IMG/VR virus record: IMGVR_UViG_3300028025_002503
Span: 1-64,000 of that record
Origin: a virus
Direction: 5' to 3' (one strand)
Length of the DNA: 64,000 nt
The notes below the pieces were generated by a model. It had not been told where the DNA came from. It saw nothing but the letters and a program-made list of their open reading frames with translations, and did no database searches. This document shows, piece after piece, positions 10,021 through 42,700 of this stretch. The translations under genes were made by a program, and so were the position numbers. Positions within the stretch are counted from its first letter, which is position 1, and each line of letters starts with the position of its first letter.

Positions 10021-10024
10021 ACAA

Positions 10025-22800: not shown

Positions 22801-23067
22801 AGTTCTATAGCAGACAAAATAGCTAAACATAAACTAGAGAACAGAACATTGGGAGTTTATGAGAATATGTACAATTATAGGTTTGGTCCTAATGGAAAGG
22901 CTATTAATGTAAATGCTCCTTATGAGTTCAATCTTGATGTAGCCAGCTTAACTCCTGAAGAATTAGAAACTGCTAGAAAATATAGAGATATTCAAGAAAA
23001 GAAAGGAAACAAAAGACAATTAACTGGTAAAAATGGTTCTCTTGTAAAAGCTATCAAAAATCTCTAA
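19873..23067 (+). CDS. cargo/ejection protein, crAss001 gp45-type
   Basis: A 1064-residue virion protein. Order: charged N-terminus; long glutamine/glycine/asparagine-rich region (about 110-290); several GG motifs (KRGGKVPKYQNG, YRKGGNIL, EDGGWVSHDW, RAGGHLKNY, MGGQLKTTWGG); a beta domain (ETVMFRGKSHEESDGNG, then VEVERGEPATELMD and GDMKIPSYGVSEL); GKKFKNYANDLSKIEKRQ; then helical alanine/glutamine-rich segments to the end. The beta block with VERGEP is one I associate with crAss-like capsid cargo proteins. The mixture of disordered and small folded parts suits a protein threaded through a narrow tail. No enzymatic motif was recognised; the gp45-type label is from memory. Confidence 0.65.
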   Translation: MKKDILKIAGVKSEKEFYYLYPTEEAFKRAFPKEFKKAKMGAAMVKKQLTQLTDFSNPPQAEMGSYIGGDSTGYQNINFGKVYGDIDSSIGVRSQMEEMQDKIDYLKEQDQGPIASAPQQGGGNNDMMQKAGQAIKMAAMLKGVPVNKRGGKVPKYQNGPTGQPLISMPSAGQFAQSDYDITNQFNQSNPGANIDAGVNPNYGQQPAQQPQQKQPTSLATTSGGRLIDKAVKLTGPFAKPIGKVINAGRQIKQSIDQAAQARQSGALSKLALQASSMRPEETKRRYTRPEDAMIDPNQVSSSYGTGYSPMQATAQYGASIGGNPTEIQNMYNPGDMYMDLGYAPLNDNDKVKQYRKGGNILKALPGAAVVAFANKVGDAAQVAGDVGSGLIDMGTERRMKQNQQMLGQTAFQSATQGMQNQNAAFMEDGGWVSHDWQPQVITQFGGYNLKDLLKPDPTMDTLRAGGHLKNYAPPSAQAMSTERMAMGGQLKTTWGGYAEPISYNPHLPGSGETVMFRGKSHEESDGNGHTGIGVKYGSGGHDSYTDYAEYGTEQADADVEVERGEPATELMDRATGETSMIVYGDMKIPSYGVSELKDPKAKGKKFKNYANDLSKIEKRQVSILEKAIDKLSKLDPTTPFEKLEFDSLSKVADGANMKLKGLAAQKELLAGIQNAILDTSKEFGLKSAELAKGKIKQEEDPEMAKFGGKFTQAQKGKKVEKKLTKAELAALAKLAKTMKYTPPTAAELAAEQEQLYKDRPEFRPQEYKNLTEKEQNALHRKRSIELGPRLDPMDLQKLTGIPNAVELAAMDAKWRTNSGGQDGDLMNLWREVQPYLTPSNQEPFDASQISPEIMALATNQLEPVQAQTFKPQLETPYSVSMQDQLNANQADFNALQRQMGYNPAAAAALAAQKYAANSAILAQQLRANQEMQMGMFNRNIGVLNDATLKNLSILDQQQQKQSQARSATKAQGQAALSSIADKIAKHKLENRTLGVYENMYNYRFGPNGKAINVNAPYEFNLDVASLTPEELETARKYRDIQEKKGNKRQLTGKNGSLVKAIKNL

Positions 23068-23155: not shown

Positions 23156-25984
23156 ATGGCTTCATATACAGACGCAATATCACAATTTAACCCCTACGTT
23201 CAACAGCTTCCAGTAGAAGCCATGTTGAAAGTTGGTACGTACAAGCAAGAGAAGTATGAAGAAGGGGTACAAAGAATCCAAGGTCAAATAGACAAAGTTG
23301 CTGGTTTGGACATTATTAAAGATGCAGATAAACAATATCTTCAATCTAAACTTAATGAACTAGGAAGCAAGTTAAAAACTGTAGCTGCTGGTGACTTCTC
23401 AAACTTCCAATTAGTCAACTCTGTAGGAGGAATGGCTAGTCAAATTGGTAAAGATAATAAGGTGGTGAATGCTGTAAGTTCTACAGCATGGTATAGAAAA
23501 CAGAGAGAAAAAATACAAAAAGATACAGATGAAGGAAAATCAGATCCTTCAAATATTTATGCTTTTGATAAAAGAGCAGCAGATTGGTTAAATAATGATG
23601 AGGCAGGTCAAAAATTTTCAGCTGATTATGTTCCTCATTTTGACATATTCAAGTTTGCAAAAGAAACCTTTGATGCTGTAGAACCAGACGGATATTCCTT
23701 TGATCAGATTTATCAACTTGGAGAAGATGGTAAACCCATGACCATTGAATCTAAAGATCCAAGAACTGGAAAAGTTACTAAAAGCCTTGTGTACTCTCCA
23801 ACAATGACAAGACTTGAGAAAGAAGGAAGACTTCCTAAAAAGGTTCAAGAAACCATATCTCAAATATTTTCTGATCCTAGAGTGAGTCGTCAATTAGGTA
23901 TTACAGGTGAATATAACTATAGAGGATATGACGAAACTGGACTTGCAGATAAAGTGATTGCTCAGAGAGATGATTTGATAGATGACTATAATGACACTCT
24001 TGCTGATTTAAATATTAAAAAGACTTCAGGAGAAGATGTACAAGACCAGATAGATGCTGTTGAACAAAGACTTGCCACTGTAAAATCTAACTACGATAAA
24101 TACTTAGAAACTGTAAAAGATAATCCTGATGCAATTAGAGGAAAGTTGTATGAGGATGATGTGTATTCCAGATATTCCACAATGTTTGGAAAGATTAAGA
24201 CAAAGACACAGATAATGGAGAATCCTGCATGGAGAGCTCAATTTGATGTGCAGAAAGAAGCAAACGCACAATCTAGGTGGGCTCAAACAGAAGCTAGACA
24301 AAGATTGGAGTTTAAAGAAACAAAAGAACTTGAAAGAGAAAAATTATCCCAAGCATGGAATATTGCTGTATTAAACGCTTCTACAAAAGGTAAAAAGAAT
24401 GCTGCCAAAGGATTCGGTACTCCTGAAGATACTAGTGGATTTACACAAGGTCAGCAGTTTAGTGATACAGATGTTATCTTTTTAGCTGATAAAGATTATA
24501 GAACTGCCGCTGACACTTTCTCAAAAAGTTCAACAAACTTAGTTTGGGATCAAGCATGTGCTGGTATTGTATCAAATGAAAAAAGACTTTCTGATTTAGT
24601 AAAAAGTGGCAAGTCACCAGAAGAAGCTAAGTATACAATATTAAAAGAAATAGCTGATAGGCGTGGTGTTCCATTGGAAGAGTTTATGACAGGTTACACT
24701 CAAAAGATAATAACCAATTATAACAATCTCACTCCTGAACAAAAAGAAAAGAACCCTCTTCTTGTAGATCAATATAATGTATATAAAAAATCATTAAGGG
24801 GATTCCAAACTCAGAAAGATATTAGAAATGATATAGATGCTCAAACAGAAGCTCTATATGGAAAAACCATATCTAGAGAAATTGCGCTAAAAGATATTAA
24901 AGATCAAAAGATCAAATTGCGTGGTGTAGAATATGATATGACTAAAGATGATATATACGATTTGTCTGTATATCTAAAAGGTAGATTGTCTGTACTAGGT
25001 ACAGCTGGTGGTGTAGATGAGGGTGTAAGAAAAGCTTCTACAGCAGCATTAGGTAGGCTTAGAGCAAGAGGTAAAGAAGAATTAGCAGATGCACTTATTG
25101 AAGATAATCTTGGAAGAAGAGCATATAGGGGTGGTCCTATTTCGTTCATGACAGATTTTACAAAAGGTTTATTTGGATTGAAAGATGCTTACAGACTAAT
25201 TAGGTATAGTGACGATACAACTGATCCATTCTCTCAAATTGAAAAAGTATTTAAGGTTATTGATAATGATCAATTTGCAGGTGGTTTAAAAGCAAAAGCT
25301 GATGTAATTAGAAAAAATTACAACATACAACCTAATATGCGTTCAGAATTATTCACTGGTGATAGTGAAACTGACAAGAATCTTTTGTACATGGTGAAAG
25401 GGTTTACAGGTGGTTATGGTACAAAAAGTGGCGGAAGAATAAATGCTTCTGGTGATTTTGCTGATTTTGCTAAAACAATTGCAGGTGCTGATGCTCCTGA
25501 TAAAATTTCATTAGATGTACAACCTACAATAGGAGCTGATGGAAACGTAAGTGTAGAGATAGTTGCTTACAATAAAGATGATATGAGTAGGGCAGGTGGG
25601 ATGACACTGCAGCCTGATGAAGCTGCTAAACTTGGTACAGATGTAAACACTTTGTATGAAACAAGAGAAGTGGCTGCTTTAAGAAACAAACTAAACTTCA
25701 ATCAAGGAAGTAGCTCTGCAGCTAGTCCAGCAGAAAAATCTACATATATTCAAGGAGACGCATATTTTGATGCTGAAGACTTTGGACAATTAAAGAATTC
25801 AGGATTTAGTGCAAAAGGCAACATTATAAAAAATGGTGGAATATATTATCCATACATATATGTTACAGATGGTCAAAATGAAAAAGTTAGACAGTTAGTA
25901 GGTAGCCCAAGTCTTGGCGCTGCTGTAGGTGCTTTGTTAAGCACAAATTCAACATATGCTAAAATGATTTTAACTGAAAAATAA
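23156..25984 (+). CDS. cargo/ejection protein upstream of the virion RNA polymerase
   Basis: A 942-residue, highly charged, mostly helical protein. The N-terminus (SQFNPYVQQLPVEAML, then VAAGDFSNFQLVNSVGG) is of a type I associate with large crAss-like virion proteins next to the RNA polymerase. Coiled-coil-like stretches occur around residues 265-330 and 375-405. The C-terminal third is glycine and aspartate rich. It has its own promoter and shares a TAATG overlap with the giant polymerase gene, so the two are likely made in matched amounts. It may help load or eject the polymerase; no catalytic motif was recognised. Confidence 0.65.
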   Translation: MASYTDAISQFNPYVQQLPVEAMLKVGTYKQEKYEEGVQRIQGQIDKVAGLDIIKDADKQYLQSKLNELGSKLKTVAAGDFSNFQLVNSVGGMASQIGKDNKVVNAVSSTAWYRKQREKIQKDTDEGKSDPSNIYAFDKRAADWLNNDEAGQKFSADYVPHFDIFKFAKETFDAVEPDGYSFDQIYQLGEDGKPMTIESKDPRTGKVTKSLVYSPTMTRLEKEGRLPKKVQETISQIFSDPRVSRQLGITGEYNYRGYDETGLADKVIAQRDDLIDDYNDTLADLNIKKTSGEDVQDQIDAVEQRLATVKSNYDKYLETVKDNPDAIRGKLYEDDVYSRYSTMFGKIKTKTQIMENPAWRAQFDVQKEANAQSRWAQTEARQRLEFKETKELEREKLSQAWNIAVLNASTKGKKNAAKGFGTPEDTSGFTQGQQFSDTDVIFLADKDYRTAADTFSKSSTNLVWDQACAGIVSNEKRLSDLVKSGKSPEEAKYTILKEIADRRGVPLEEFMTGYTQKIITNYNNLTPEQKEKNPLLVDQYNVYKKSLRGFQTQKDIRNDIDAQTEALYGKTISREIALKDIKDQKIKLRGVEYDMTKDDIYDLSVYLKGRLSVLGTAGGVDEGVRKASTAALGRLRARGKEELADALIEDNLGRRAYRGGPISFMTDFTKGLFGLKDAYRLIRYSDDTTDPFSQIEKVFKVIDNDQFAGGLKAKADVIRKNYNIQPNMRSELFTGDSETDKNLLYMVKGFTGGYGTKSGGRINASGDFADFAKTIAGADAPDKISLDVQPTIGADGNVSVEIVAYNKDDMSRAGGMTLQPDEAAKLGTDVNTLYETREVAALRNKLNFNQGSSSAASPAEKSTYIQGDAYFDAEDFGQLKNSGFSAKGNIIKNGGIYYPYIYVTDGQNEKVRQLVGSPSLGAAVGALLSTNSTYAKMILTEK

Positions 25985-28900
25985 TGCCAGATCAAGAAAA
26001 TCTCATAAACAGAAAAGGTGTAGCGTTAAATCTTCCAAAGACACCAATCGTTCCTTTTTTTCCATCTGCTCCAGCAGCAGAAGATGGATTACCAGGAATG
26101 TCAGTGAATGATTATTTTTCAGCAAAACTGAATGCTCAAAAGCCAGCAATTGAAGATATTCCTGTGTCTTCATTTTATATTGGAGACAGGTATCCAGAAA
26201 CTAGACCTGGTACTGATTATGAGGAAATGGCTGGTCAACAGCAATCATCATTAGATAAGTTGGCAAATGGTACAGTTAAGATGTTAGGTAGTGCAACCAC
26301 CTCTTTTGCATCTGGTACTGTTGGTTTATTGTATGGAACTCTAGCTTCTGTATTTGAACAAAGGTTGGCATCATTAATTGATAATGATGTTACTAGGCAG
26401 ATGGATAACATGTCCAAGAAATTGGAAGATGTTCTTCCAAACTATTATACGAAAGCGGAAACAAATGCTGAATGGTATTCTCCAAACAACGTTCTCACTG
26501 CAAACTTTTGGTCAGATAAGATTATTAAAAACCTTGGATTTTCTTTAGGTGCAATTGCAGGTGGTGCAGCTTGGTCTTCTGTATTTAAAAGTATAGGACT
26601 TACAAATGCATTGGTAAAAGCAGGTGCAGGAATGGAAGCTGCTACAGCTGTAGAGGCTGCAATGACACAGTCTCCTAATCTTCAGAAATATAATGCAATT
26701 GAATCTGCACTAGGTTCTCTTTCACAAAAATATATAAGAACTCCTGCCTCCTCATTATTAAAAAATTCAGACAGAATCCTTACGTCTGCAATGGGAACCT
26801 TTGGAGAAGCATCTATAGAAGGTTTGCAAAATTTAAATGAGTTTAGAAACAAAGCAATTAATGAGTATAGGGATTTGTATGGTAAAACTCCAGAAGGCAA
26901 AGATCTCGAAGATATAAATAAATTTGCTGATAAAATAGGTATGTACACATGGGGCTTTAACACAATGTTGCTTACAGGTACAAACTACATTCAACTTCCT
27001 AAAATCTTAGGATCTTCAAGAAGAGCTGATAAGGCAATGATCAATGAAATTGGTCAGGAAGCTATTGGTGGTGATTTTACAAAAACTGTTGCAAGAACAA
27101 GATTTGGAAAACTAGTTGATGGTGCACGAGGTGTAGGATCTTTGATATTTGCTCCATCAGAAGCATTTGAAGAAGGTGCTCAGTTTGCTGTTCAAACAGG
27201 TGTAGATAATTATTTTGAAAGAGCATATAAAAATAAAGAAGGCGTAAAATCATTCTTTCAGTCAATGAATGAGGTGGGAAAGAATGTATTTGGTGAGGGA
27301 GTAGAAGAAACTCTTGGTACAAAAGAGGGCTTGGAGAACATCCTTATTGGTGGACTATCGGGTGGACTTCAGCAATCTGGAATTGTAGGAACATATACAG
27401 ATGAAGAAACTGGTAAGACAGGTATAGGGTTTGGTAAATCTGGAACACTTGGAGAACAAGGACTGTTTGGTCTTGGTGGTGAAAAAGGAAAGAACACAGA
27501 TCTTGCTGTAGTTGCGCTTAATAAAACTAAGCTTCCTCAACTATTTAAAGATGGTGCAAAGTATTTTGGAATAGGTATGGGTTCTCAACAAATGAGACAA
27601 GATGCTATTGCCAATAATGATAAACTTTCTGAAAAAGATTATGAGGCAGATTACATGTTCTCATATCTTATGCCAAGAGTTAAGTATGGTAAGCTAGCGT
27701 CTGTTGATGGTGAGCTTGCTGCTTATGAAAGTCAGGCAATGACAGTTGATGGTTTCAATGAGTTAAAAACTAGTGGCATTGTAAACAAAGAAGAATCAAG
27801 AGAACAGTTTCTTGAAAGAATCAACCATGTTAGAGAGACAGCTAAAGACATGGACAGGTTATATTCAACTATCAGAGACAAGTATGAGACTGTATACGAT
27901 GATGACAATAAGAGAAAGTACTCAGATGCAGTTTTGGATAAGCTTGTATACGCTGCGTCAAAGATTAAAAATTACGACAGTAGGATTCCTAGCTTAAATG
28001 AAAAATTAGTTATATCAGGAGTGGATGCTCAATCTATAATTGATGATGTTGTTAAGACAGGAAACCTATCTGAAGAAAGTGTAAAAGATGTAGCTGACCA
28101 AATTAATAAGCTTAATGGTACTGATGATCAAATAGAAGATAGTGTTCAGAATGTAAAAGACCTTGCAGAACTTGCATTAAGGAGAAAAAAGTTTATTGAT
28201 GACTACAATGCAATAAAAGCCAATCCTAAAAACTTTGAAGATGTTCCAGATGTTCCCAAAGCTCCTGAAGGTGCTGAGGTTTCCGAAAAACGTACAATTA
28301 AACTAAAGACAAAGATTGGAGAAAAGGATTTTGAAATAGGTACAGAGTATTTTCTTGGAAAAAGAATTTATAAGACCAAAGAAGGATATGAAGTTTATAG
28401 GTTTCCAAAACTCACTATTCTTGGAGAGAATGAGGATGGTACAATTAAAATCAAAGATAGTGATGGGGGAGTGAGGGATGTTTCTAAAGCTGTATTGGCT
28501 GAATACAGACTTCATAAAGTGAGTGATGTTGCTACAAATGAAAATGCAAATTTTTATTTAAGGAACATGAATAATATAGTGTACTGGAATAGAGGAAAGG
28601 ATAAAGGGGGTGAGGTTCCTGGTAGACTTGTATATGATGATAATGGTAAACTCTATTTTGTATATAAGAACAAAAAAGGAGAGATTAAAGAAACAGAAGT
28701 TGGACTTGATTCATTTAAACCTAAGAAGGGATATTTGAATGGAGTGTTTAGGTTTGGGCAAACTCTTACTAAAGAAGATATTGCTGATATTGAAAAAAGA
28801 GAAGCATCTGGAAAAACAAAAGAAGACGTAGAATCAAGAAGGGCTAATAGATTAAAAATACTTAGTGATCTATTTGATGAGGTTTCAGATAAACTAACAT

Positions 28901-31900
28901 CTACTAACAATCTCATTCAGCAGAAGTATGCTCAGTTTGAAAAGATTGTAAACGATCTTACAAAACTGCAGGAGAAGATTAAAGTTGGTGAACTTACTAA
29001 GACTAATACATTTAAGAAGACAACCAATAATACAATCAAGGCTGCAAACAAACTTTCAAGAATGCAAGAAGACTTGCGTCTTGAAATTGAAAAGCTTGAA
29101 GCAGAAAAAGAACAGCTTGAAATAAACCAAGCTTATATATTTGATCTTTCTGAGGGGTTGGACGAACTTCCTTCAGACAGCAGGGAGTTCTTAAAAGAAC
29201 TTCAGAATGAGAAAGATGCTATCACTGATCTAGTTGTTGAATCTGGACTTGCTATTAATTCTCTTTCTAAATTACTTGATAATGTAGAAGGTGCATTAAA
29301 GACAGCTGTTGATTTTGCACTTGATCTCATTAGAAAGTTTGAAGCTAAATACCCCAATCTTCCATACACACCACTTGGACTTCGTGAGTTCTTGAATAAA
29401 GACCTTGAGTTTAAAGGTGTCTATCCAGATTATCAATCCTATCTACAGGCTAATCCAAATCTATTAGCTGATCTTACAGAGTTCGAAAGAGACATTGCTG
29501 AAATAGATGACCTTGATGTTGTTCCTAACGAACGTTCTGTTGCTGAACTTAAATCAGAAATAGAAAAGCTCTATGAACAAATCAGTGAAGCAGAAAAACA
29601 ATTAAGAGCAAAGAGTCTTGTATTAGATAGGTTTAGTGATATTGCTGCTGCTTATAAAAAACAACAAGAAGAAGAAAAAGCTTTTGCTAAAGATAATAAG
29701 TTAAGAGAAGAATTCATTGGTACTAACACAGATGATGTAGAAACTCTTATAGCTGAGGATCTTCAGAATTATGAAGCGGCTGCTAAGAAAGGGGACTATG
29801 GTGTTGTAGGTGGCACAATGCCTATTGATGATGGTAAAGCTCATCAAAAAAGAGCAAACAATTTTGGTTTCAGATTACCAAAGATTGATCCAAATGGAGA
29901 TGAGATATTTGGTATTGTTGTAACACAAAAGACAGAAGATAAACTTGGACTTAAGGGATTGATGAATCATCTCTATCCAACAGATCCTGGTACAGTGATT
30001 GCTCTTGTAATGGTTAGAAAAGATGAGTATGGTACATATTCTCTTGTAGATGAATTTGGTGAAGTGATCCCTGCAGGATCTGACATGATTAACAACGCCA
30101 TCTATCAGGTGTTCCCTGAGAAGAAACTTACAGCCACATACAACGGTAAGGTGGAAAGTATGTTTAGGGATGCAACCTCTGAAACAAGGCAACCTATTAT
30201 AAAAGCTCTCACAGAACAATATTCTGCCTGGAGAGATGCACGACTTGCTGAAACAACACTTGGTAAACCTAGAAGTGTAGGTGCTTCGTTTGGTGTACCA
30301 GAATACGTTAAACAACTTAAACCTGACGGTACAGAAGGTCCTATAGATTATGCTGCAAGAACTTCTGCTACAGAATCTGGTCTTATATCTGAAGCAGATT
30401 TATCAAATGGTAGAGTGTTATTGTTCTCTACAACAAACGATGCTGTTGCTAATGGATCTGTAGTGTTTAACACTCCTCTTGGTAGAGTGTTCTTAAAAGT
30501 TCCTGGTGGATTGGTTAAATTGTTCAACAGAAGGTTTAATAAAAAAGAAGCCACTACATTGTTTGATGTAATATATCAAGCTACTAAAAATGCTGTTGAA
30601 GATAAAACATTAAAAACAGAAAGAACACAATTGTTGTTCAACTGGTTAAAGTCTGTAACTTATTGGGGTATTGCAAAGAATACACAAACAAAGGTAAGGA
30701 AAGATAAAGCTGGATATAATAATATATGGTTTGAAGATGTAGCAGATGATAAAGGTGCAACAACAACCAGGTTGTTTATATCTGGAAAAGGTAAGTCATA
30801 CGCATTCACACCAAGTTCTCTTGAAGCTAACAGAGATGAGATAATCAGTTTGTTACAGAATTTGTATTTTAATGCTAATGCTACAATGTCCAATAAGGAT
30901 GCATACAATAAAAAATACAAAGAGATAACTGGTATTGATAAAGATGGTAATCCTCAATTTACCACTTGGGATAACTACCAAACATTCCTTCTGTCTTCTA
31001 AAGGTAGGAAGAAGGATGAAGTTCCTTTTACAACAGTGTTGAAACCACAAACTGATCCAGATGCTGTAAATAGGAAAGATATTTATTTTAAAATTAGAGA
31101 TATAGCTGATGACTATGTTATTCCTGAACCTGTTCCTGTTGTAACACAGTCACCTGTAGCACCAGCCTCTACAGTAACACCAGGTGCACCATCTGCTGAC
31201 AACTTAGCTAAGATAGCCAAGCTTAAAGAAGTTAAAGAACTTATTGCTAATACAGATGACATCAATTTTAAAATGGATGAAATCTTTGCAGTGGTTGATG
31301 AGGCAGCTTATGAAGCATGGATGCCAGGTGCTGTAGAAGCTAACATAGCTGAAATAAGACCATTGATTGCAGATGCAAATGATGAATTAGATGCTGCAAA
31401 CATTTCTGGAAAATATCTAATTCCTAAATTCATTGATGCAGAAATAGCTAAATTAGAAAAAGCACCAGCTGCACCAGCAGCTTCAACCACCACCACCACT
31501 GCAACAACTCCAGGAGTTTATATTTTAGATGGTGTGCAAAAGAATACTTATTATTTAAAAGATGGTAAAGGTGCAATCTATTTTACAGCTGATATAAAGA
31601 AGTACAATCCAGCAGATGGAACAATGCCATTAAGTTTTGAAGCAGCTGATGAAGCAACTGCTCAATGGTTAACAGATACATTTAAGACAGAAGCTGTTAT
31701 AAAACAAAAAGTTGCTGGTTCAATAATGCTTGCATTAAAACCACAAATTGATGCATACGTTGCTCCTGTAGCTCCTGCTGAAGTTCCTTTTGTTCCTATG
31801 CAAACAGCTCCTGTTGTTACAGATACTAAAGATGATGTAAAAAGAAGAAGGCAAGAAGATAATAACTCTCCTGCTAGACAGTCTGTAAAATATAAACTTC

Positions 31901-34900
31901 AAAATAAAATAGCAGGTATAGACAATCCTAGTCTAGGAAATGAAGTAGTTAATTTATCAGAAGCTATAAAAATTGCAGGTTTCAAAATATCTACTCCTAT
32001 AAAAATTACCGAAGGAGAGATTACCCATGTAGTTTTCGACCAAGAGGAATCTATGTTTAGATTTACTTATAAGGGAAAACAATTTGCTGCTTTTTATACA
32101 GCTAATGCAAGAGGAAATGTTAGATGGGAAGTAACAAAGATTAATGACCAAACAGGTACTTATCAAGTTGTTAATATAGATGAACTAAAAAATATTATTG
32201 AAAAATATGGTTCTCAAAGAGACTTGCTACTGAGTTTAGGAGCTAAAAATTTAGTTGAGGATATTGAAAATTTTGAAAAGGTAGAATATTCTACTGAAGA
32301 TAAATCTTCTGGAAATGGTATTATTCCTTTAGAGAATACAGTTTCTGCAGAACAAGTAAGGCTTGCAAAGAAATATGGAGTAACATATACTCTTGAAGAT
32401 TTCTTAAAACAATATGATGCAGAACTAGCTGCTTTAGAAGGAGCTAAACCTACTGTTGATACATCTGCACCATTTGATTCAGATGGTTGGGATGATGAAC
32501 CAATTGTAAGACCTGATGACAGAGCTCATCGTATAATGCTAGCAAATCAAATTAATAACTACATAAGTGAAGATTGGAATAAGTTGGAAGCATGGTTAAA
32601 AGCCAATTTCTTCAATATTCCTTTCTACAGATTGAAGAATGTTATTCAAGCTACAAATGGTAGGCAAGCTTGGGGTATGTTTCATAAAGGAGCAGTTTAC
32701 GTTTATGAGAATGCTGAAGTGGGCACTGCCTATCATGAAGTGTTTGAAGCTGTATGGAAAATGTTCACTGATCCAAAAGAACAAAAAGCAATCCTTGATG
32801 AGTTCAAGAAGAGGAGAGGAACATTTGTAGATAGGGAAACTCAAAAAACAGTTAACTATAAAGATGCCACTCCTTATCAAATCAAGGAACAATTAGCTGA
32901 AGAGTTTAGAGACTTTGTTCTTACAAACAAAAATGTTGGTAAACCTACGTATGGTAAATCACTTATCAGTAGAATGTTTACTGAGCTTGTTAACTTTATC
33001 AGAGAATTGTTTTATGGTCCAAAGGCTCAGACTAATACAGCAAACTTGTTTGCAAAAATAGGTAATGGGTATTATAAAAACTATGTACCTTATGAGTCTT
33101 CTCTAGGATTTGCACAAAATGGTATAATTGATATTGATCAAGCTGAAGGTGATGAAAGTTCTGAATTTAGATTAGACAACATCCCTGCTGTACAACAACA
33201 TGAGATTATACAAAACATGACGTACAGCACATTGTCTACACTATCTAGGACTAATAAAGATTTATTTAGTACAGGTTCTTTGAATAAAGCAGAACTTTAC
33301 GACAGACTTAAGAAAGAAACAAAACAGCTTATTCGTTGGCAAGGATCACAGATTGAACAAAATATTAAAGATGGTTTGATTAATGCATCAGCTTTACCAA
33401 AAGCTCAAGCTGACATTAATGCTTTGAGATTCTTGTATACAAATGTTGAAGCAGATTGGGCTGCTATTATTGAGAAACACCAAGAGCATTTAAAAACTTT
33501 CTCTGTTGAGTTTGATGAGAACGATCAGATAGAAATTAAAGATGAAGATAAAGGTAAGGACACTCCTTATGGAGATTCTAGGAAAATAGATGGATTTAGA
33601 AAAGCAAACTCTGCAATTAAACTTATTATAGGAACACTTCCAGTTATGGAAATGACTGCTGAAGGTCCTAGAATTAAGCGTACAAGCATAGGTGGTGCTA
33701 TGTTGTTGCCTTCTGACAAAGTGTTTATTACAGTGATGAGTAAGCTTCATGATGCTGTCAACATTGATGACATGTTGAACAAGTTGAGGATTCTTGCTGA
33801 AGGTAATCCAGACTATAGGTCTTTGTATGAACGTATCGCAAGACGACCTTTTGATCAACCTGGTATTGATTATTCACAGATGCAAAATGACTATGACTTA
33901 CAATTAATCACATCATTCTGGAGAACATTTAAAAAACAGAATGCTGATGTAAGAATAGTGTTCGTTCTTCCTTCAGGAGATGTAGTTATTGGTGATTCTA
34001 CATTAGCAAGTGCTGCTAAGCAAGCTAGAGTTGAGATGACCAACTCAATGGTTAAATCAATAAAAGCCAATCCTATTTATTTGAAATATGATGAGAAGGC
34101 AAAGCTCTATCAACCTCAGGATGCTATCAATCAAGTTAAGTTAAACCCTGCAGTTTTAAGCACTTACACAAAGTTTCTAGCAAATATAGGTATAGAATTT
34201 GATCCAGCCAGAGTGGCAAAAATGACTGACAAGCAACAGCTTGCATTCAGAGATGCTGTTCAAGGAATTCGTACCAGTTTAATTGAAGCAACTAATGTTG
34301 GATCACTTAATTCTAAAAGTCTTAGTATAGATGGTCAGCTTTTAAATCTTGGTGCAATCAAAGCTGTTTTAGAAAATCCTGAATTCGAAAGTACGTATTT
34401 CAATCTTAATGGCGAGCGTGCTCAAACATTTATTGGTACAAACGCTGTTAGTGATTTGTATGATGTTCTGTTTAAAATACGTAGTATTAATGAACTAAAG
34501 ACAAACACTAGTTATTTACAATATAAATATCTCACTACAGACAGTTTTGCAAAGGGAAGCAACTTGTTAAACAGAATGTTTAATTTAAATGATCCAAGAG
34601 GTTCTCGTAGAGATGAAACTCAAGATCTTCTCAAAACTGCTTATGTTGATGGTACAGTTAATGAAGAAAATGGTAAGAAGAAAGAATCATCAAAGCTTAC
34701 TCTAAAAGAACGTATCATTCAAGAGATGAATTTGAACTTGGATGGATATTACATGCACCTTGTTCCTGGTGATGCGTCTATTGAGTGGATGTCTAAATTA
34801 GGAAATGCCATCAGTGAAGACATGTTGGCTGGAGATAACTACGAGGATGTATATGAAATATTCAAAGAATACTTCATGTCAGAAGTTGAGCTATCTAGAG

Positions 34901-37900
34901 AAAATAGACCAATTGTGCAGGATGAGGGTAAGACTAGAAACTCTAGAGATCTTCGTTTCTTTAAGAGTATTCTTGATAATGACAAACTTCACAAGTCCAT
35001 CATAGCTAAAACAAATGACAGTCTCACTCCTGCTGAAGTTTATAAAAAATATAAGCCTGATATTGAGAGAGCTGTTAAAGCGTTTATTGAAGCAGAAACT
35101 AAAAAAACAGAAACCAATCTTAGACAATACGGTATTATTTTTGAAACAGAAGAAGGAACAAGTGTAGAAAACCTAGCGTTCTCTAAAGAAGAAACAATCT
35201 CTCAAGAAGACTTGATGAGAAATCTCAAAGCTCTGACAATCAATTACATGATTTCCAACATAGAGCTTCATAAACTTGTATACTCAGATCCATATCAATA
35301 CAAGGATGAATTGAAACGTATTAAGAACTTCCTTTCTCCACGTACACCACTGATAGCTGATTCTCAAGCAATCAATGAAGCTCTTGATAATACATACAAT
35401 AAAGATTTTCAAGATAAAGATGATATTGGTCGTACAGATTTTGTAAGAGATTATTTTAGATCAATCACTCTTGCTGATGTAGTGGCTGTTAGTGATCTTC
35501 CTGGATATGTTCCATATAAAGACACAGATGGTGGTGGTTTAATTACATTTAAAGCTAATCGTAACTTTAGACTTCGTGCTGGACAATGGAATTCTGATGA
35601 AGAGAAGCAATATAAGTTTGATGTTAAGTTTGAAAAGCTTGTAAAATCTGGAGCAAGCAAAGAAGAAATTAAAAAGTTTCTTAAAGGTAATCCAGGAATC
35701 ATGAGTGCTTATACTCCACTTAAACCTATTGTTTCTGGTAATAAAAGAAATGGTAGAACATATAATGATATTCTTCTAGATAAGTTTGCACTTGTTCCAC
35801 AATCATTCAGGATATTGTACGAAATCAATCCAGAATCTAATGCTCTTAAGTTGTACAACAAGATGCAAGAAGAGGATATTGACTATGCTGTATTTGCTTC
35901 AGGTAGAAAGGTTGGTGCTGAAAAGATACATAGTGTATACAATGGAGACAAATTTAATGATGCTCCTTTTGAAACACCAAATGAGAAACTTACACCAGAT
36001 CAACCCCAGGGAGTTACATTTGTTCCATACAGTATTGTAAGTGTACAGGCTGAAGTTCCATCTAAAGAAGCAGCTTATGTAACACAGGGATCTCAGATAA
36101 CTAAGCTTGCTACAATGGACTTCATGGAAGCAGGTGTACCAATTGATTTTGAACCTACACTTGATTTTGATGATCGTTTTATAAAATGGATGGGACTTAG
36201 TGAAGATGAGAAAATGAAGTCTGAGCTTTATAAAGAGATTAAAAACAATCAGTCACTTCTACAAGCTAAGATTGAGGAAGGATTTAACACTCTCATTAAA
36301 GATCTTGGAATCAAACAAACTGAAACAACTGTTGTAGATCCTGAAACAAATGAGAAAAAAGTTGTTAAGTCCTTTGTTATAGAAGATAAAGATAAATTAT
36401 CAAACACTCTTAAAGAAGAAGTTCTTAAAAGGGAAGTTAATGATAACATCATTGAAGCATTCAATGGATTTAAGAAAGGAGATATTGTACTTGAAGCAAC
36501 ACCTGCTTACCAACAAATCAAAAACGTTCTTTATTCAATAGCTGATAAAAGAGTTATTTCTCCAAAGATTTCTGGTGGACAGAAGGTACAGATACCATCA
36601 TCTTTCCTAGAGAGCAACAGAATATTTAAGACTGAGAAAGGTGGATATCAATCTGACTTTCTTAAGTTTTATGAAAAAGATGGTGAGCGTGTGTGTGAAA
36701 TTATGGTGGGCAGATGGTTTAAGAGTAATTTATCAGATGAAGCTCTTCTTAAATATCTAAACACAGATGAAGGTAAGAAGATTTTGTCTGGTATAGGATT
36801 TCGTATTCCTACACAGAAACAAAACTCAATTGATTCATTTGTAATCAAAGGATTTCTTCCTGCAGAATTTGGTGACTCAGTTGTAATCCCTTCTGAATTG
36901 GTTCAGAAGTCTGGATCTGACTTTGATATAGATAAGCTCAGCTTGTATTTTAAGAATATATTCAAGGATTCAAAAGGTAATATCAATCTTGTTGAAAGAA
37001 AAGGATCTAGAGAAGAAACTATAGCTTACTACAGTAAGGTGTTTGATGAAATTCTTGAGGGTTCAAAAATTAAGAAAGCTGAACTTTTTGAAGCCATAGA
37101 TATTATCAATTATGGTTTAGAAGATCCTAAAAAGCTTGAAGAAAAATATGGTGACATATTAAATTCAATGTTGGAAGATTATGCAGAATACGAAGATCTT
37201 TCAGGTGCGTTGATGAGAGAACTAGAAAAGCTAGGAGATGCAAATCTTCAAGCAGAGCTTAGAGAAAAGTATGCAACTCAGATGTACAAGAAAGCTTTAG
37301 AGAATGAATACATTCAGTCTCTTCAGAACCTCGTATCACATCCTGCAAACTTTGACAACCTAATCAAACCAAACTCTGCAGAACAATTACAAGACCTGGC
37401 TAAAGATGTTAATGAAAAACTTGGTAGACCAGAGACTGACTATTCTTCTCCAGGAAACATGTTGAGCAGAACATTTATGACAGATCTTAGACAAGCGTTC
37501 GTAAGTGGTAAGTATGCAATTGGTATTGCTGCAACAGCTCAAACACTACAAGCTCAGTTCCAACGCTTCTCTGGATATGTAGACTATGATAAGTTAGAAG
37601 GAGTTACTGAGGCTGATAAAAAATGGCTTGGTGATGGTAAAGTGAAGTTTGCTGAATTCAACACTGTTAATGTTCCTGGAAAAGGAGTGATGCCGTCTTT
37701 GTCAATGATCAATAATGCTGAAAGAAGTGAAAAGTATCCTAAAGGACAAACTATTACTGACATCATTGCTCAGTTCATTGATGGATATGTGGATATTGCA
37801 AAAGGTCCTTGGATTATGCAACTTGGTGCTACACCAAACGTAGCTTCTACATGGTTGTTCCTTGCAAAGATTGGTGTACCTATTAAGACTGTGGCTTATT

Positions 37901-39729
37901 TCATGAACCAACCAATTGTTCGTGATTACCTAAGAGCAATAGAAAGTAATGGTTATTCATACATGTTCATTGATCGATTCTTTAATGAACAACAGGAGAT
38001 GTATAAACCAAGTGAAGAAATAACTATTACAGAACTGCCAAATGAGACAGCTCTTGGAAAGATGGTTGGTAAATCATGGGAAAACATGACACCAGTTGAG
38101 AAAGCACAACAACAATTTATTCTTCAAGAGTTTGTTAAATATGGTAAGCTTGCTGAACATTTGTTCCACGTAACACAGGGATCAAACTTTGACACAGCTG
38201 TAATGAATGATCCTTTCTTGGTGTTCAAGAAGATGATGCAATTGGTAAAAGCAAGGAAAACAATGATCTCTTCTGTAGATGATGTTTTAGATAACTCATT
38301 TGTAGGGGTTCTTAAAGATGCAATATTTGATGTAAGGGATGCATTCTCTACTATATTGATGTCAGATAAGAAGTCTGTAAGAAATGTTCTTGAAGCTTCT
38401 CTCCTTCCATTTATAGAATTGAATGATAAAGATTTTATCAAGGTGTCACAGAAAATGGTTAACGATCTGTTTGACTGGGCTGTACAAACTGATAGATCAT
38501 TTAATTCACAAGTTGAAGAAATTCTATTAGGTAAGGGTGATGTAAAAAGTGCATCAGCTCAAGTGATAGAATTTCAAAAGAAAGTACTTGCTGATAAGGA
38601 ACATCCTTTGTTTAACAACATGATTATCAACTCAATAAGAGAGAAACCAGGAGAGAAAAAAGGTGCTCCAAACAATCTGTTCATTGCAGGAAAGGGTAAC
38701 AAAGTGTATGATCAAAACTTAATGATATACAGCTTTAGAGAACTAAAGAAACATCTTGGAGCTGAGGGTAACGATCTGTATAAAAAACTTGTTAGACTTG
38801 CTGTAATACAGTCTGGATTAACGAATTCTCCAATAGCATTTACATCTCTTCTTCCATACGAAGATTTTAAAGAAGAATATAACGAAACTATATCTAAGTT
38901 AGATAATATGCCTAACTTAGCAGAGTTTTACAACCTTGATGTGTTCCAAAGAAACAACTGGAACAATAATTCAATAGTTGCTTCTGGAAAAGCTAAATGG
39001 AAAAAGAGTAAAAAGGGCAAGTGGTACTCTACACCAACTAGACCTTCAGAGATAACATTTGTTGATAAGAAGCTTAAGAATGCAATTGCTAAAGGTGTTA
39101 TTCCTCAATTGCTCAACTTCTCAACAATGTCTGCAGAAGGTAGATCTGAATTTATTACGTTCTCTTGGGAAAAAGGTAACTACACCAAGGAACAGAAAAA
39201 ACAAATGAGAAAGAAAGGTGACTACTCATACATAGAGAAAGGATTGTTTAAAAAGGTTTATAACTCAGACGGTACACCATTCATACAAACTTCTGAAAAC
39301 AAAGATGGTAGCATTTATGAAAGTTTTGTTTATAAAGCAATCAACGCCTGGGGGGATTCTTTCAGAGCTAACGAATTCTATCTAGATAGAGTGCCTTCCA
39401 AATTAGAAAATGGATTTATGAAAGTTGAGGCTAAGAATGAAACAATTACAATTCCTGGAACCAGTTCAACTTACCAAAAGCTAAGTAGTGCTGAAGTTAG
39501 TGATGATTTAATTGTTGATATATACAATGGTGGAGTGATAATTGAACAAGAAATTGCTCCTACAGTTGCAGAGTCTGAAAAGGCTATAAGCAACATAGAT
39601 ATGAACAGAAGAGTTATAAAACTGAAAGATGGTATAACTTATAGTTTTAATATGGTGAAAGCTCCTATGTTAAATACAATGGGATATAACGCTGAAGAAA
39701 TTAATGAAATTTTAAAATCAATCTGTTAA
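25984..39729 (+). CDS. giant virion RNA polymerase polyprotein (4581 residues)
   Basis: Predicted virion-packaged RNA polymerase of the crAss-like type, ejected with the DNA to transcribe early genes. The metal-binding motif is SGSDFDIDKLS, with aspartates 3646, 3648 and 3650, preceded by GFRIPTQKQNS (about 3605) and FGDSVVIPSELVQK, the same order as the region before the NADFDGD loop of cellular beta-prime subunits. Other parts, in order: alanine/glycine-rich hydrophobic segments (about 95-230), a coiled coil (about 940-1050), three proline/alanine/threonine-rich linkers (about 1713-1736, 1826-1843 and 1925-1949), and an AYHEVFEAVW segment at 2249-2258 like a degenerate zincin helix. It is about twice the size of the characterised Cellulophaga phage phi14:2 enzyme, so much of it is not polymerase core. 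No frameshift is visible. Confidence 0.8.
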   Translation: MPDQENLINRKGVALNLPKTPIVPFFPSAPAAEDGLPGMSVNDYFSAKLNAQKPAIEDIPVSSFYIGDRYPETRPGTDYEEMAGQQQSSLDKLANGTVKMLGSATTSFASGTVGLLYGTLASVFEQRLASLIDNDVTRQMDNMSKKLEDVLPNYYTKAETNAEWYSPNNVLTANFWSDKIIKNLGFSLGAIAGGAAWSSVFKSIGLTNALVKAGAGMEAATAVEAAMTQSPNLQKYNAIESALGSLSQKYIRTPASSLLKNSDRILTSAMGTFGEASIEGLQNLNEFRNKAINEYRDLYGKTPEGKDLEDINKFADKIGMYTWGFNTMLLTGTNYIQLPKILGSSRRADKAMINEIGQEAIGGDFTKTVARTRFGKLVDGARGVGSLIFAPSEAFEEGAQFAVQTGVDNYFERAYKNKEGVKSFFQSMNEVGKNVFGEGVEETLGTKEGLENILIGGLSGGLQQSGIVGTYTDEETGKTGIGFGKSGTLGEQGLFGLGGEKGKNTDLAVVALNKTKLPQLFKDGAKYFGIGMGSQQMRQDAIANNDKLSEKDYEADYMFSYLMPRVKYGKLASVDGELAAYESQAMTVDGFNELKTSGIVNKEESREQFLERINHVRETAKDMDRLYSTIRDKYETVYDDDNKRKYSDAVLDKLVYAASKIKNYDSRIPSLNEKLVISGVDAQSIIDDVVKTGNLSEESVKDVADQINKLNGTDDQIEDSVQNVKDLAELALRRKKFIDDYNAIKANPKNFEDVPDVPKAPEGAEVSEKRTIKLKTKIGEKDFEIGTEYFLGKRIYKTKEGYEVYRFPKLTILGENEDGTIKIKDSDGGVRDVSKAVLAEYRLHKVSDVATNENANFYLRNMNNIVYWNRGKDKGGEVPGRLVYDDNGKLYFVYKNKKGEIKETEVGLDSFKPKKGYLNGVFRFGQTLTKEDIADIEKREASGKTKEDVESRRANRLKILSDLFDEVSDKLTSTNNLIQQKYAQFEKIVNDLTKLQEKIKVGELTKTNTFKKTTNNTIKAANKLSRMQEDLRLEIEKLEAEKEQLEINQAYIFDLSEGLDELPSDSREFLKELQNEKDAITDLVVESGLAINSLSKLLDNVEGALKTAVDFALDLIRKFEAKYPNLPYTPLGLREFLNKDLEFKGVYPDYQSYLQANPNLLADLTEFERDIAEIDDLDVVPNERSVAELKSEIEKLYEQISEAEKQLRAKSLVLDRFSDIAAAYKKQQEEEKAFAKDNKLREEFIGTNTDDVETLIAEDLQNYEAAAKKGDYGVVGGTMPIDDGKAHQKRANNFGFRLPKIDPNGDEIFGIVVTQKTEDKLGLKGLMNHLYPTDPGTVIALVMVRKDEYGTYSLVDEFGEVIPAGSDMINNAIYQVFPEKKLTATYNGKVESMFRDATSETRQPIIKALTEQYSAWRDARLAETTLGKPRSVGASFGVPEYVKQLKPDGTEGPIDYAARTSATESGLISEADLSNGRVLLFSTTNDAVANGSVVFNTPLGRVFLKVPGGLVKLFNRRFNKKEATTLFDVIYQATKNAVEDKTLKTERTQLLFNWLKSVTYWGIAKNTQTKVRKDKAGYNNIWFEDVADDKGATTTRLFISGKGKSYAFTPSSLEANRDEIISLLQNLYFNANATMSNKDAYNKKYKEITGIDKDGNPQFTTWDNYQTFLLSSKGRKKDEVPFTTVLKPQTDPDAVNRKDIYFKIRDIADDYVIPEPVPVVTQSPVAPASTVTPGAPSADNLAKIAKLKEVKELIANTDDINFKMDEIFAVVDEAAYEAWMPGAVEANIAEIRPLIADANDELDAANISGKYLIPKFIDAEIAKLEKAPAAPAASTTTTTATTPGVYILDGVQKNTYYLKDGKGAIYFTADIKKYNPADGTMPLSFEAADEATAQWLTDTFKTEAVIKQKVAGSIMLALKPQIDAYVAPVAPAEVPFVPMQTAPVVTDTKDDVKRRRQEDNNSPARQSVKYKLQNKIAGIDNPSLGNEVVNLSEAIKIAGFKISTPIKITEGEITHVVFDQEESMFRFTYKGKQFAAFYTANARGNVRWEVTKINDQTGTYQVVNIDELKNIIEKYGSQRDLLLSLGAKNLVEDIENFEKVEYSTEDKSSGNGIIPLENTVSAEQVRLAKKYGVTYTLEDFLKQYDAELAALEGAKPTVDTSAPFDSDGWDDEPIVRPDDRAHRIMLANQINNYISEDWNKLEAWLKANFFNIPFYRLKNVIQATNGRQAWGMFHKGAVYVYENAEVGTAYHEVFEAVWKMFTDPKEQKAILDEFKKRRGTFVDRETQKTVNYKDATPYQIKEQLAEEFRDFVLTNKNVGKPTYGKSLISRMFTELVNFIRELFYGPKAQTNTANLFAKIGNGYYKNYVPYESSLGFAQNGIIDIDQAEGDESSEFRLDNIPAVQQHEIIQNMTYSTLSTLSRTNKDLFSTGSLNKAELYDRLKKETKQLIRWQGSQIEQNIKDGLINASALPKAQADINALRFLYTNVEADWAAIIEKHQEHLKTFSVEFDENDQIEIKDEDKGKDTPYGDSRKIDGFRKANSAIKLIIGTLPVMEMTAEGPRIKRTSIGGAMLLPSDKVFITVMSKLHDAVNIDDMLNKLRILAEGNPDYRSLYERIARRPFDQPGIDYSQMQNDYDLQLITSFWRTFKKQNADVRIVFVLPSGDVVIGDSTLASAAKQARVEMTNSMVKSIKANPIYLKYDEKAKLYQPQDAINQVKLNPAVLSTYTKFLANIGIEFDPARVAKMTDKQQLAFRDAVQGIRTSLIEATNVGSLNSKSLSIDGQLLNLGAIKAVLENPEFESTYFNLNGERAQTFIGTNAVSDLYDVLFKIRSINELKTNTSYLQYKYLTTDSFAKGSNLLNRMFNLNDPRGSRRDETQDLLKTAYVDGTVNEENGKKKESSKLTLKERIIQEMNLNLDGYYMHLVPGDASIEWMSKLGNAISEDMLAGDNYEDVYEIFKEYFMSEVELSRENRPIVQDEGKTRNSRDLRFFKSILDNDKLHKSIIAKTNDSLTPAEVYKKYKPDIERAVKAFIEAETKKTETNLRQYGIIFETEEGTSVENLAFSKEETISQEDLMRNLKALTINYMISNIELHKLVYSDPYQYKDELKRIKNFLSPRTPLIADSQAINEALDNTYNKDFQDKDDIGRTDFVRDYFRSITLADVVAVSDLPGYVPYKDTDGGGLITFKANRNFRLRAGQWNSDEEKQYKFDVKFEKLVKSGASKEEIKKFLKGNPGIMSAYTPLKPIVSGNKRNGRTYNDILLDKFALVPQSFRILYEINPESNALKLYNKMQEEDIDYAVFASGRKVGAEKIHSVYNGDKFNDAPFETPNEKLTPDQPQGVTFVPYSIVSVQAEVPSKEAAYVTQGSQITKLATMDFMEAGVPIDFEPTLDFDDRFIKWMGLSEDEKMKSELYKEIKNNQSLLQAKIEEGFNTLIKDLGIKQTETTVVDPETNEKKVVKSFVIEDKDKLSNTLKEEVLKREVNDNIIEAFNGFKKGDIVLEATPAYQQIKNVLYSIADKRVISPKISGGQKVQIPSSFLESNRIFKTEKGGYQSDFLKFYEKDGERVCEIMVGRWFKSNLSDEALLKYLNTDEGKKILSGIGFRIPTQKQNSIDSFVIKGFLPAEFGDSVVIPSELVQKSGSDFDIDKLSLYFKNIFKDSKGNINLVERKGSREETIAYYSKVFDEILEGSKIKKAELFEAIDIINYGLEDPKKLEEKYGDILNSMLEDYAEYEDLSGALMRELEKLGDANLQAELREKYATQMYKKALENEYIQSLQNLVSHPANFDNLIKPNSAEQLQDLAKDVNEKLGRPETDYSSPGNMLSRTFMTDLRQAFVSGKYAIGIAATAQTLQAQFQRFSGYVDYDKLEGVTEADKKWLGDGKVKFAEFNTVNVPGKGVMPSLSMINNAERSEKYPKGQTITDIIAQFIDGYVDIAKGPWIMQLGATPNVASTWLFLAKIGVPIKTVAYFMNQPIVRDYLRAIESNGYSYMFIDRFFNEQQEMYKPSEEITITELPNETALGKMVGKSWENMTPVEKAQQQFILQEFVKYGKLAEHLFHVTQGSNFDTAVMNDPFLVFKKMMQLVKARKTMISSVDDVLDNSFVGVLKDAIFDVRDAFSTILMSDKKSVRNVLEASLLPFIELNDKDFIKVSQKMVNDLFDWAVQTDRSFNSQVEEILLGKGDVKSASAQVIEFQKKVLADKEHPLFNNMIINSIREKPGEKKGAPNNLFIAGKGNKVYDQNLMIYSFRELKKHLGAEGNDLYKKLVRLAVIQSGLTNSPIAFTSLLPYEDFKEEYNETISKLDNMPNLAEFYNLDVFQRNNWNNNSIVASGKAKWKKSKKGKWYSTPTRPSEITFVDKKLKNAIAKGVIPQLLNFSTMSAEGRSEFITFSWEKGNYTKEQKKQMRKKGDYSYIEKGLFKKVYNSDGTPFIQTSENKDGSIYESFVYKAINAWGDSFRANEFYLDRVPSKLENGFMKVEAKNETITIPGTSSTYQKLSSAEVSDDLIVDIYNGGVIIEQEIAPTVAESEKAISNIDMNRRVIKLKDGITYSFNMVKAPMLNTMGYNAEEINEILKSIC

Positions 39730-39730
39730 T

Positions 39731-42700
39731 ATGGCAACTTGTCCTAATAAAAATCTAGATTCTTGGAAACGTCTTGTAGCTGCTAGAGAAAACGTTGCAT
39801 ACTACCTGTGGGACTTGTATGAAGGAAATGTTCCTGAGAACGAGATGCAAGCTGTTCTTCTTCAAACAGATGACATGCCTGCATCCAAAGCGTCTAAAGA
39901 AACACTTGAGAAAGTTGAGAAGGTGGCTAAAGACATGGGTGTTAGCATTATGGAACTGTCTGCCTATCTTAAAGGTAATCCTAATGTAGATGCCAAGGGT
40001 GTTTCTGGTCTTGCTGATCTTGTTAAAGGTGTAATAGCCATTGCTCAAGGAAGAGAAAATGTGGCAACTACAGAGGAGCTTGTTCACATAGCAACAGCTA
40101 TTCTTGAACAAACCAACCCTGAATTGATTACAGCTCTCATATCTAGAATAGGAGAATATAAGATTTACAAACAAACATTAGAAACTTATGGTAAGAAAAA
40201 AGCTTACCAACTACCTAATGGTAAACCAGACATTCGTAAAATAAAGAAAGAAGCTGTAGATAAACTCATAGCTGAATATATTGTTCTCAACAGTGAGGGA
40301 TCTACAGAATTTCCTGAGCTTAGAGATAAAGAGAAAAGGAATGTCGTACAGAGAATGTGGGACACCATTCTAGAAGCAATCAGAAACCTATATGGAAAAA
40401 CTAAGGTGGATCTTTTCCAAGAAACTGCTGCTAAAATATTAGAAGGTGGTGTGGCTGGTACAGTTGCTGATATTGTAAACGATGGTATATTCTTTCAAAT
40501 AGAAAAGAATGAGCTTGTTGATAAAGTGTTTAGCACTATTAATATGGAAGCTAGTAAGATAGTGGGACCTGTTCCTGCTACATACGATGCTTCTGGTAAG
40601 TTGATAAAGAAAAGACATTATCTATACGATGGTAAAGAAGTTGATACCACTGTAACTGAAATGCTTGATAGAGATGAGAACATGCCTGAGCGTTCTGAGT
40701 TCAATAAAGTTGAAGATGAACAGAAGAGACTTTGGGGAACTGAAGGACATGACTTTATAGATAGGTTTATTTCTGTTAACTTGATAGATAAAGATGGTTA
40801 CAAAAGAGCCAACTTTGATAAAGTTGATATTGAAACAAAACTTGATGGTGCAATTAAAGAAAGATTACAAAACTTTGCCATAGAACTTATAAACTCTTAC
40901 CCAGAAGGAACACGTTTCTTATTGGAGAAAAGAGCTGTTAATATGAAGGGTAAAGAAACAATAGCTTCTACAATTGACTTTATTGCAATTCAACCTATTG
41001 TTAAGAAAAATGGTGAGAAGGATGTTAAGGTGGATGTTCTTGACTGGAAGTTTGTAAACTTAGATAAAAGAAAAACAGGAGATATTCCTTGGTATAAAAT
41101 AGGAAAGTGGAGAGGTCAAATGAGTGAGTATGTCAAAATGATGTACAACTATGGAGTTAAGGCTAATCAGCTTGGTAAAACAAGGATGATTCCATTTGTT
41201 TCAAATTATAGCTACTCTGTAGCAGGAGATAAGAAGAGCCCATTAAAGCTAACATCTTTAGAAATAGGTAAGGTGGATAATGCTAAAGAAACCACTCTCT
41301 ATTTATTACAGGTTCCTCTTGCATCAGAAACAACCGACAATTCACAAATTGATGAACTTCTTAAATCATTAGATCAACAATACGATAAGCTCTATCGTAA
41401 ATCAGCTTCTCCAGAAGAAAAGTTTGCAAAGAATATACAACTAGAGGAACTATCAAAAGCAATTCGTCATCTGCATATAAAACTTGACTTTGAACCACTT
41501 GTAGGTGTTGGTACAACATTCTTAAACAATGCTGCGAAAGCATTTAAAGGTTTTGATAATATTGATTATACAAAACTTACAAAAGAAGATATTAGAATCA
41601 AGTTACAAGATTTGATGGAGTATAAAAAGAGTGCTCTTAAATTCTCTCAACTAGACGATGTATTCTTAACCAAGTTCCCAACTAAAAATCTCAGTGCAGA
41701 AGATAAGAAAACTCTTGCTTCTCTTGAGCACATTGCTTCTTCTACAGGAAGGATGTTGGACAAGATAAAAGAGATTGAGAATCAATTTGCTGTACAGACA
41801 GCTCTCAAAGAAGAATTTACAACAGTAGAAGCTGAAAAAGAAGAGAATAAAGAACTTGGACAAAGTGTTCTTACACCAGAGAAAGCAATAGACACTCTAT
41901 CAAAAACTTTCCTAGAAGCATCCAAACTTGGTTCAAAGATTATCAATCTTGCAGCAAACTTAATAATGAACGCAGCAAGTCTTGTTAATCTAAAAGCAAA
42001 TGAGAAAATTGATGAATATAGTAAACTACTTTTACCATTAGAAAGAGAAGCAAAGGCTATGGGTAAGAGTGCTTTTGACATGATTGGTAAAGTGGAAGGT
42101 GGTAAACTTGAACTTATTAATAAGGTTGATAAAAAGTTTGAAGATGCTTTTGAAGAAGCAAAGAGAGAGGGTGATAAACAGTTTATTCTAGACAATCTAT
42201 ATGTTGATGAATATATGAAACTTGCTGAAGCCGCTATTCAAAGAGGTGAGGAAGAGATCAACAACACAGTGTTTTCAACAGATGAAGATGAGAACTTCTT
42301 AAGAAGAGAGAATAGGGTAAGGAAACTAAAAGATGAATTAGATATAACTAGAGATACATTCAATGGTTATTCTGGATATCAGTTTAATTATTTGTTCGGT
42401 AAGACAATGAACGAAGAAAAAAACCTTTCTCCAGAGTACAAGAACATGGTTCATAGTGATGCTGCTTTTAAAATGTGGCAATTCATGACTTCATTGAACC
42501 AGAAAGCAATTGATATGGGCTACATTGGAAATAGGGGAATATCATTTTTCCCTCTTATGGAAGCTTCGTTGTTGCAAAAAGTTTCTAATTCAGGAGATGT
42601 TTTAAAAGAAAGTAAAGACTTCTTTGGAGATATGTTCACTACAAAAGTGGATGAAGAACAGAAGTTCTCAAAGCTTGATCCTGAAACAAACCAGATAAGA

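Follow-up and report, generated by a model that had tools for sequence, protein, structure and literature searches.

A giant gene of a crAss-like phage that very probably encodes a fused virion cargo protein and RNA polymerase

Introduction

crAss-like phages are known for their genes for giant virion RNA polymerases (vRNAPs), which reach up to about 6000 aa in this group (review PMC10136315); giant size alone is not new. In phage phi14:2 the catalytic RNA polymerase subunit is annotated as gp66 (PDB 6vr4; review PMC10136315). For phage crAss001, gp47, gp49 and gp50 were detected as virion proteins by mass spectrometry and placed in the cargo zone of the capsid (PMC10172136). crAss-like polymerases and those of RNA interference (RNAi) have been linked in the literature (PMC7886860). 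For the Epsilon group, which includes phi17:2, the transcription block was described as absent (Yutin et al., 2021; PMC7886860), whereas a later paper proposed a very diverged vRNAP for these phages (PMC11054128). A further giant polymerase is the vRNAP of phage N4, which is composed of a membrane-binding N-terminal domain, a low-complexity linker of about 100 residues and the polymerase (PMC12633501).

The DNA analyzed here, referred to as the window, comprises 64,000 nucleotides (positions 1 to 64,000 of the IMG/VR virus record IMGVR_UViG_3300028025_002503). A giant gene in it in all likelihood encodes a fused virion cargo protein and vRNAP of a crAss-like (Crassvirales-related) Bacteroidota phage, which would be ejected and would transcribe early genes. 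Homology, fold, fusion and clade-wide conservation of this protein are established in the present analysis.

Results

Genomic context

The following ORFs were assigned in the window:

392-1945, + strand: crassvirus major capsid protein (Pfam Crass_capsid, E=7e-28)
8822-9547, + strand: tail ring protein 2 (Pfam CrAss_Ring_2, E=2e-17)
9959-10957, + strand: tail ring protein 1 (Pfam CrAss_Ring_1, E=3e-14)
10973-15889, + strand: crassvirus muzzle protein, main part (Pfam crAss_MUZ, E=3.5e-34)
23156-25984, + strand: 942-aa ORF in the position of the crAss001 cargo gene gp46, homologous to phi17:2 gp40 and Lbo-JY46 XAI97383
25984-39729, + strand: probable giant fused cargo protein and virion RNA polymerase (open frame and domain homologies)
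39731-44527, + strand: gp49-type partner, 1598 aa (profile matches to crAss001 gp49, E=2e-30, and cr108_1 gp52, E=6e-110)

The capsid, ring and muzzle matches all lie above the Pfam cut-off and constitute a structural block of the Crassvirales type. The unbroken frame of 4581 codons that had been predicted for the giant gene was confirmed: it starts with ATG and contains no internal stop, while the reverse complement has 201. It overlaps the upstream ORF by one base, and the ORF of the gp49-type partner begins 1 bp downstream. The partner matches phi14:2 g065 in position, and the gene order before the gp65/gp49-type partner is common to phi14:2 and the window. Scans of the giant protein against PHROGs and Pfam gave nothing significant; weak Pfam matches to GspL_C and eRF1_1 were discarded.

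Gene fusion and fission seem common in the cargo block. Two window ORFs in the cargo position (17008-19851, 947 aa, and 19873-23067, 1064 aa) correspond to a single 2057-aa ORF in the relative G005 (L195, 11635-17805). The muzzle protein is split over two genes of about 1640 and 290 aa (10973-15889 and 16139-17008), with the C-terminal part separate, and this split recurs in two relatives, L195 (4835-10273 and 10817-11686) and L196. An Rfam scan of the window found nothing, so that the break in the muzzle gene is not attributable to a known intron family. Downstream of the partner, two long repetitive fibre-like proteins (44669-49969, 1766 aa, and 54171-56483, 770 aa) share repeats such as WRSIEWSNNSGWGLYGAGTANNYL. 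In Lbo-JY46, deposited as a phage of the cyanobacterium Leptolyngbya and yet equipped with crAss-like structural proteins, XAI97381 (L012, 6355-14601) comprises 2748 aa, contains the HExxH motif twice and has a gp49-like C-terminus.

The 4.83-Mb contig of Chitinophaga sp. YR573 (L198; NZ_FOJF01000001.1, about 3.70-3.74 Mb), a strain previously named as a crAss-like source (PMC10136315), encodes a protein with the same modules in the same order as the window protein; here the chain also takes in the gp49-type module and so reaches 5491 aa, encoded on a bacterial contig. L198 is identical to G013 (L129/L192) over 16,132 bp, and the capsid protein encoded on the YR573 chromosome is 61% identical to that of the window. 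Based on this copy and the capsid identity, the host of the window's phage is most likely a member of the Bacteroidota. A crAss-like genome within the YR573 contig stands in contrast to the description of these phages as strictly lytic.

The RNA polymerase core

Comparison of profiles, models and conservation enabled a division of the giant protein into the following parts:

26167-28863, + strand: N module, residues 62-960 (profile A6 matches; model pLDDT 70)
28864-29703, + strand: coiled-coil-like, weakly conserved stretch, residues ~961-1240 (sequence and conservation profile)
29809-31149, + strand: M block, residues 1276-1722, conserved in the clade and kept in the polymerase-less L137 protein too
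31150-32529, + strand: variable tether, residues 1723-2182, 460 aa, with three P/A-rich stretches (conservation, length survey)
32530-33012, + strand: zincin-like domain, residues 2183-2343 (HEVFE at 2251-2255 and conserved downstream Glu2302)
34861-38373, + strand: RNA polymerase core, residues 2960-4130, with beta-like and beta'-like halves in a single chain (profile, AlphaFold2, Foldseek)
35908-35910, + strand: candidate beta-side active-site Lys3309 in GRKVGAE (invariant column K350 of profile A5)
36919-36933, + strand: catalytic DFDID, residues 3646-3650 (aligned with D1361/D1363/D1365 of phi14:2 gp66)

A fragment search centred on the motif yielded 75 phage records, nearly all of them crAss-like and phi14:2 gp66 among them. 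The core profile (A5, residues 2960-4130) was established from 75 sequences, namely the window's own and 74 environmental relatives. In hmmsearch it matched PDB 6vr4 (phi14:2 gp66) with E=9.4e-54 over about 1030 positions (profile positions 55-1085), a positive result for the comparison with crAss-like RNA polymerases. Structure prediction was positive for the core as well: the AlphaFold2 model from the 75-sequence alignment reached a pLDDT of 88.4 and a pTM of 0.88, and Foldseek returned 6vr4 on top (E=8.1e-30, TM 0.65 by query), followed by QDE-1 (2j7n, E=1.3e-4). This ranking, with an RNAi polymerase next after 6vr4, agrees with the published link between the two groups (PMC7886860). The identity as a crAss-like vRNAP, claimed in the original prediction from the sequence alone, is thereby borne out by profile search, model and Foldseek.

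The DFDID motif was likewise found where it had been predicted. Its Asp triad is invariant in 75/75 sequences, as is the Lys right after it. In the core model a helix precedes the DxDxD loop and a strand follows, which is the setting of a beta'-type double-psi barrel; judged by the fold match, D3646, D3648 and D3650 would be clustered there. Lys3309, invariant in the 75 sequences, aligns with DGVKVGA of 6vr4 and may act on the beta side of the active site. By Foldseek match and alignment, phi14:2 gp66 shares the polymerase fold and the DFDID site with the window's core, but it is a protein of 2180 aa encoded by its own gene, with 24% identity, and the counterpart g067 is a separate gene ahead of gp66.

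The beta subunit family PF00562 had no match in the window genome, because the core is too diverged for a single-family search. The T7-type polymerase family PF00940 had no match in the window genome, nor in the control genomes; the search for it in the polymerase-less genomes is likewise uninformative, as the controls gave no signal.

The N-terminal half

The original prediction had regarded the protein as about twice the phi14:2 enzyme, with more than 2000 extra residues holding further activities. This surplus is instead the counterpart of gp47 and g067, fused in front of the polymerase. The profile of the N module (A6, residues 62-960) detected crAss001 gp47 (E=5e-65), phi17:2 gp39 (E=3e-59) and Lbo-JY46 XAI97382 (E=2e-56), and the module is homologous to the N-terminal half of crAss001 gp47. 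The zincin-like domain matched the C-terminal part of the same protein (E=1.6e-20) and cr50_1 gp059 (E=7e-24). Residues 62-1722 and 2183-2343 together correspond to crAss001 gp47; for the M block alone, none of the named phages tested gave a detectable match, and it was assigned to the gp47-type part because of order and conservation. The separate genes add up to 4753 aa in crAss001 (2341+2412) and 3977 aa in phi14:2 (1797+2180). The 4581-aa total is close to these sums and, together with the homology to gp47, this accounts for the surplus. An additional enzyme of a new type with about 2000 residues was rejected, since the residues concerned are tied to gp47. By homology, the gene is a gp47-type and a gp50/gp66-type gene fused head to tail. 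crAss001 distributes the same parts over three genes, with the N module and the zincin-like domain in gp47, the polymerase in gp50 and gp49 in the role of the ORF after the giant gene; unlike in the window, gp49 and gp50 lie on the strand opposite gp47.

The N module consists mostly of long helices, followed by a small beta domain, with low model confidence across much of the first ~460 residues. Among solved structures no fold reached E<=0.001, and what came up were low-TM fragments of the ribosomal, Tudor and SH3-like kind; the fold search among viral structures pointed to crAss-like structural proteins. In the window's N module, hydropathy analysis at the threshold used revealed no segment that is clearly transmembrane, which leaves membrane anchoring without direct support. 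The N half may plausibly serve in delivery, a role that gains indirect support from relatives that keep this half without a detectable polymerase.

The features described upstream of the motif in the original prediction, i.e., P/A linkers, a coiled coil (about residues 960-1240) and a zincin-type helix, are present, and linkers and helix are, as far as homology tells, parts of the homologue of gp47, a separate crassvirus cargo protein. The helix (YHEVFEAVW, 2250-2258, with H2251 and E2252) departs from the zincin pattern in one respect: it lacks the HExxH with two zinc-binding His, as Glu takes the place of the second His (HEVFE).

Could the domain be an active metalloprotease that is delivered with the polymerase and cuts, e.g., host proteins or the cell envelope? 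Neither the first His nor the Glu of the motif varies among 110 distinct sequences, the downstream Glu is 98% conserved, and named relatives possess the full HExxH (HEAFH in both crAss001 and cr50_1). The fifth position is occupied by Glu in 83/110 sequences, the window's included, and by His in the remaining 27/110, with no other residue; Glu is off the consensus zinc ligand set, and the TEELVH motif of the partner protein is also one His short. That only two residues, both metal-capable, occur there suggests that metal binding may persist, but classical protease chemistry of the HExxH type cannot be taken for granted. With a structural, non-proteolytic domain at least equally likely, we regard an active protease as rather unlikely. 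The TEELVH of the gp49-type partner resembles a second zincin motif; there it is the first His that is replaced, which makes the motif complementary to HEVFE of the giant protein.

Distribution of the fusion

N module, zincin-like domain and core were found in one frame at 133 environmental loci, several of which overlap on one contig. After removal of duplicates, 62 distinct closed fused ORFs of 3189-5114 aa (median 4218) remained; judged from these ORFs, members of a large environmental clade as a rule carry the fusion. Few members of the clade are split. In L044 the two genes encode 2026 and 2151 aa and overlap by 4 bp; this case was counted as a natural boundary, while the split in L102/L170 was left out, as its frames overlap and it may be a sequencing frameshift. 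In the core tree a branch with support 0.997 divides the environmental clade that contains the window from cr108_1, cr50_1, phi14:2 and crAss001, so that by this tree the window falls outside the named Crassvirales families.

Public sequences contain fused giants as well: cr50_1 gp059 (4774 aa), Flavobacterium phage Fpv3 gp32 (4287 aa, with DYDID) and the 5491-aa protein of the Chitinophaga genome. In cr50_1 gp059, which exceeds the window protein in size, a single gene covers the zincin-like domain and the polymerase core, while the N module of cr50_1 and cr108_1 is too diverged for detection by the present profile. As named relatives exist without the fusion, it is not required for function. 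In cr108_1 the counterpart gene (gp54/gp53) is interrupted: the annotated break between two "hypothetical proteins" (L002, 20132-20423) falls within the DxDxD motif, and the flanking pieces form one continuous alignment, as though the active site were split by an intron of about 290 bp.

The variable tether

Conservation drops sharply at residues 1726-2175, where the alignment is 46-79% gapped. This tether carries P/A/T-rich stretches at residues ~1711-1745, 1827-1842 and 1922-1945, and its fraction of P/A/E/T/V is 0.41 in comparison to 0.30 for whole proteins (Pro 6.1% vs 3.4%). In 104 distinct sequences its length ranges from 101 to 729 aa with a median of 234, a spread of about sevenfold, and the 460 aa of the window account for much of the protein's extra length.

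The original prediction had also considered cleavage at the linkers. The protein would then be a polyprotein, translated whole and cut in the P/A-rich tether into separate gp47-like and gp66-like virion proteins as in phi14:2 and crAss001. Such a scheme would fit the separate genes of relatives, within the clade also in L044, and a tether that is variable and flexible in composition. No conserved site is evident in the tether alignment, as its gaps and length range illustrate; the 5491-aa version has a third module fused as well, and the scan of window proteins brought up no maturation protease. We found nothing in support of cleavage and consider a polyprotein improbable.

Exchange and loss of the polymerase

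The N module and the core of the relative L121 have different affinities. Its N module is 50% identical to that of the window and 25% to that of L099, whereas its core is 36% identical to the window's and 60% to that of L099. The different closest relatives of the two parts, in L121 as well as in the trees, indicate exchange between lineages across the tether.

In L137 (contig 3300012924_000007, 82.6 kb) an ORF of 3031 aa contains the N and M blocks, corresponding to window residues 27-833 and 1155-1727, and runs in frame into a gp49-type protein (residues 54-1596 of the window's 1598-aa partner). The zincin-like domain and the polymerase are missing from this ORF, and no core was found elsewhere in the 82.6-kb contig. 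The trees of the N module (0.954) and of gp49 (1.000) both place it as sister to the 5491-aa fusion of all modules. Read most simply, this single metagenome contig, which may be incomplete, would have lost the polymerase block in frame. The complete genomes of phi17:2 and Lbo-JY46 contain no detectable core, while the N module is present (E ~1e-56 to 1e-59). A total absence of polymerase from phi17:2 is not claimed here, as the literature is divided (PMC7886860 vs PMC11054128).

According to the crAss001 annotation, the N module and the gp49-type partner could be true RNA polymerase subunits, with functions in promoter binding or processivity. Both adjoin the catalytic protein and are co-packaged with it (PMC10172136), and fusions with it recur. 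Against such a role, both persist without a detectable core, fused together in L137 and also in the complete genomes of phi17:2 and Lbo-JY46, and phi14:2 gp66 by itself is the catalytic RNA polymerase (PDB 6vr4; PMC10136315). We therefore hold a subunit function to be doubtful.

These comparisons of sequences suggest that the polymerase behaves as a cassette, open to replacement or loss while the neighboring parts remain. We tentatively propose, with nearly even confidence for and against, that the gp47-type N part and the gp49-type protein form a delivery chassis and that the polymerase between them is a cargo cassette, exchangeable at the tether and deletable in frame, with the chassis still working.

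Discussion

By comparison with phi14:2 and crAss001, the giant chain would be packed in the head. It would thread through portal, ring barrel and muzzle before the DNA and then refold in the cell. The polymerase half, as in the same two phages, would transcribe early genes via its DFDID metal site. The N module may remain as delivery or anchoring machinery, as its persistence without a detectable polymerase suggests, and the 460-residue tether might allow the attached polymerase to work, as proposed for the N4 vRNAP. Phage N4 gp50 (3500 aa) is likewise a giant ejected chain with an N-terminal domain, a long linker and a polymerase. Its polymerase is, however, of the single-subunit T7 type, whereas the window's core belongs to the 6vr4/QDE-1 type with a different fold; the resemblance is a working analogy and not kinship.

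The protein is of a kind already known, and its main interest lies in the cassette behavior. What the comparison adds is a testable division of labor: the flanking parts persist in the absence of the polymerase and recombine separately from it, and so they are candidates for the machinery that moves megadalton protein cargo through the tail and the envelope of Bacteroidota. With its one-chain version of 5491 aa, the sequenced Chitinophaga isolate would be a place to test this division of labor.
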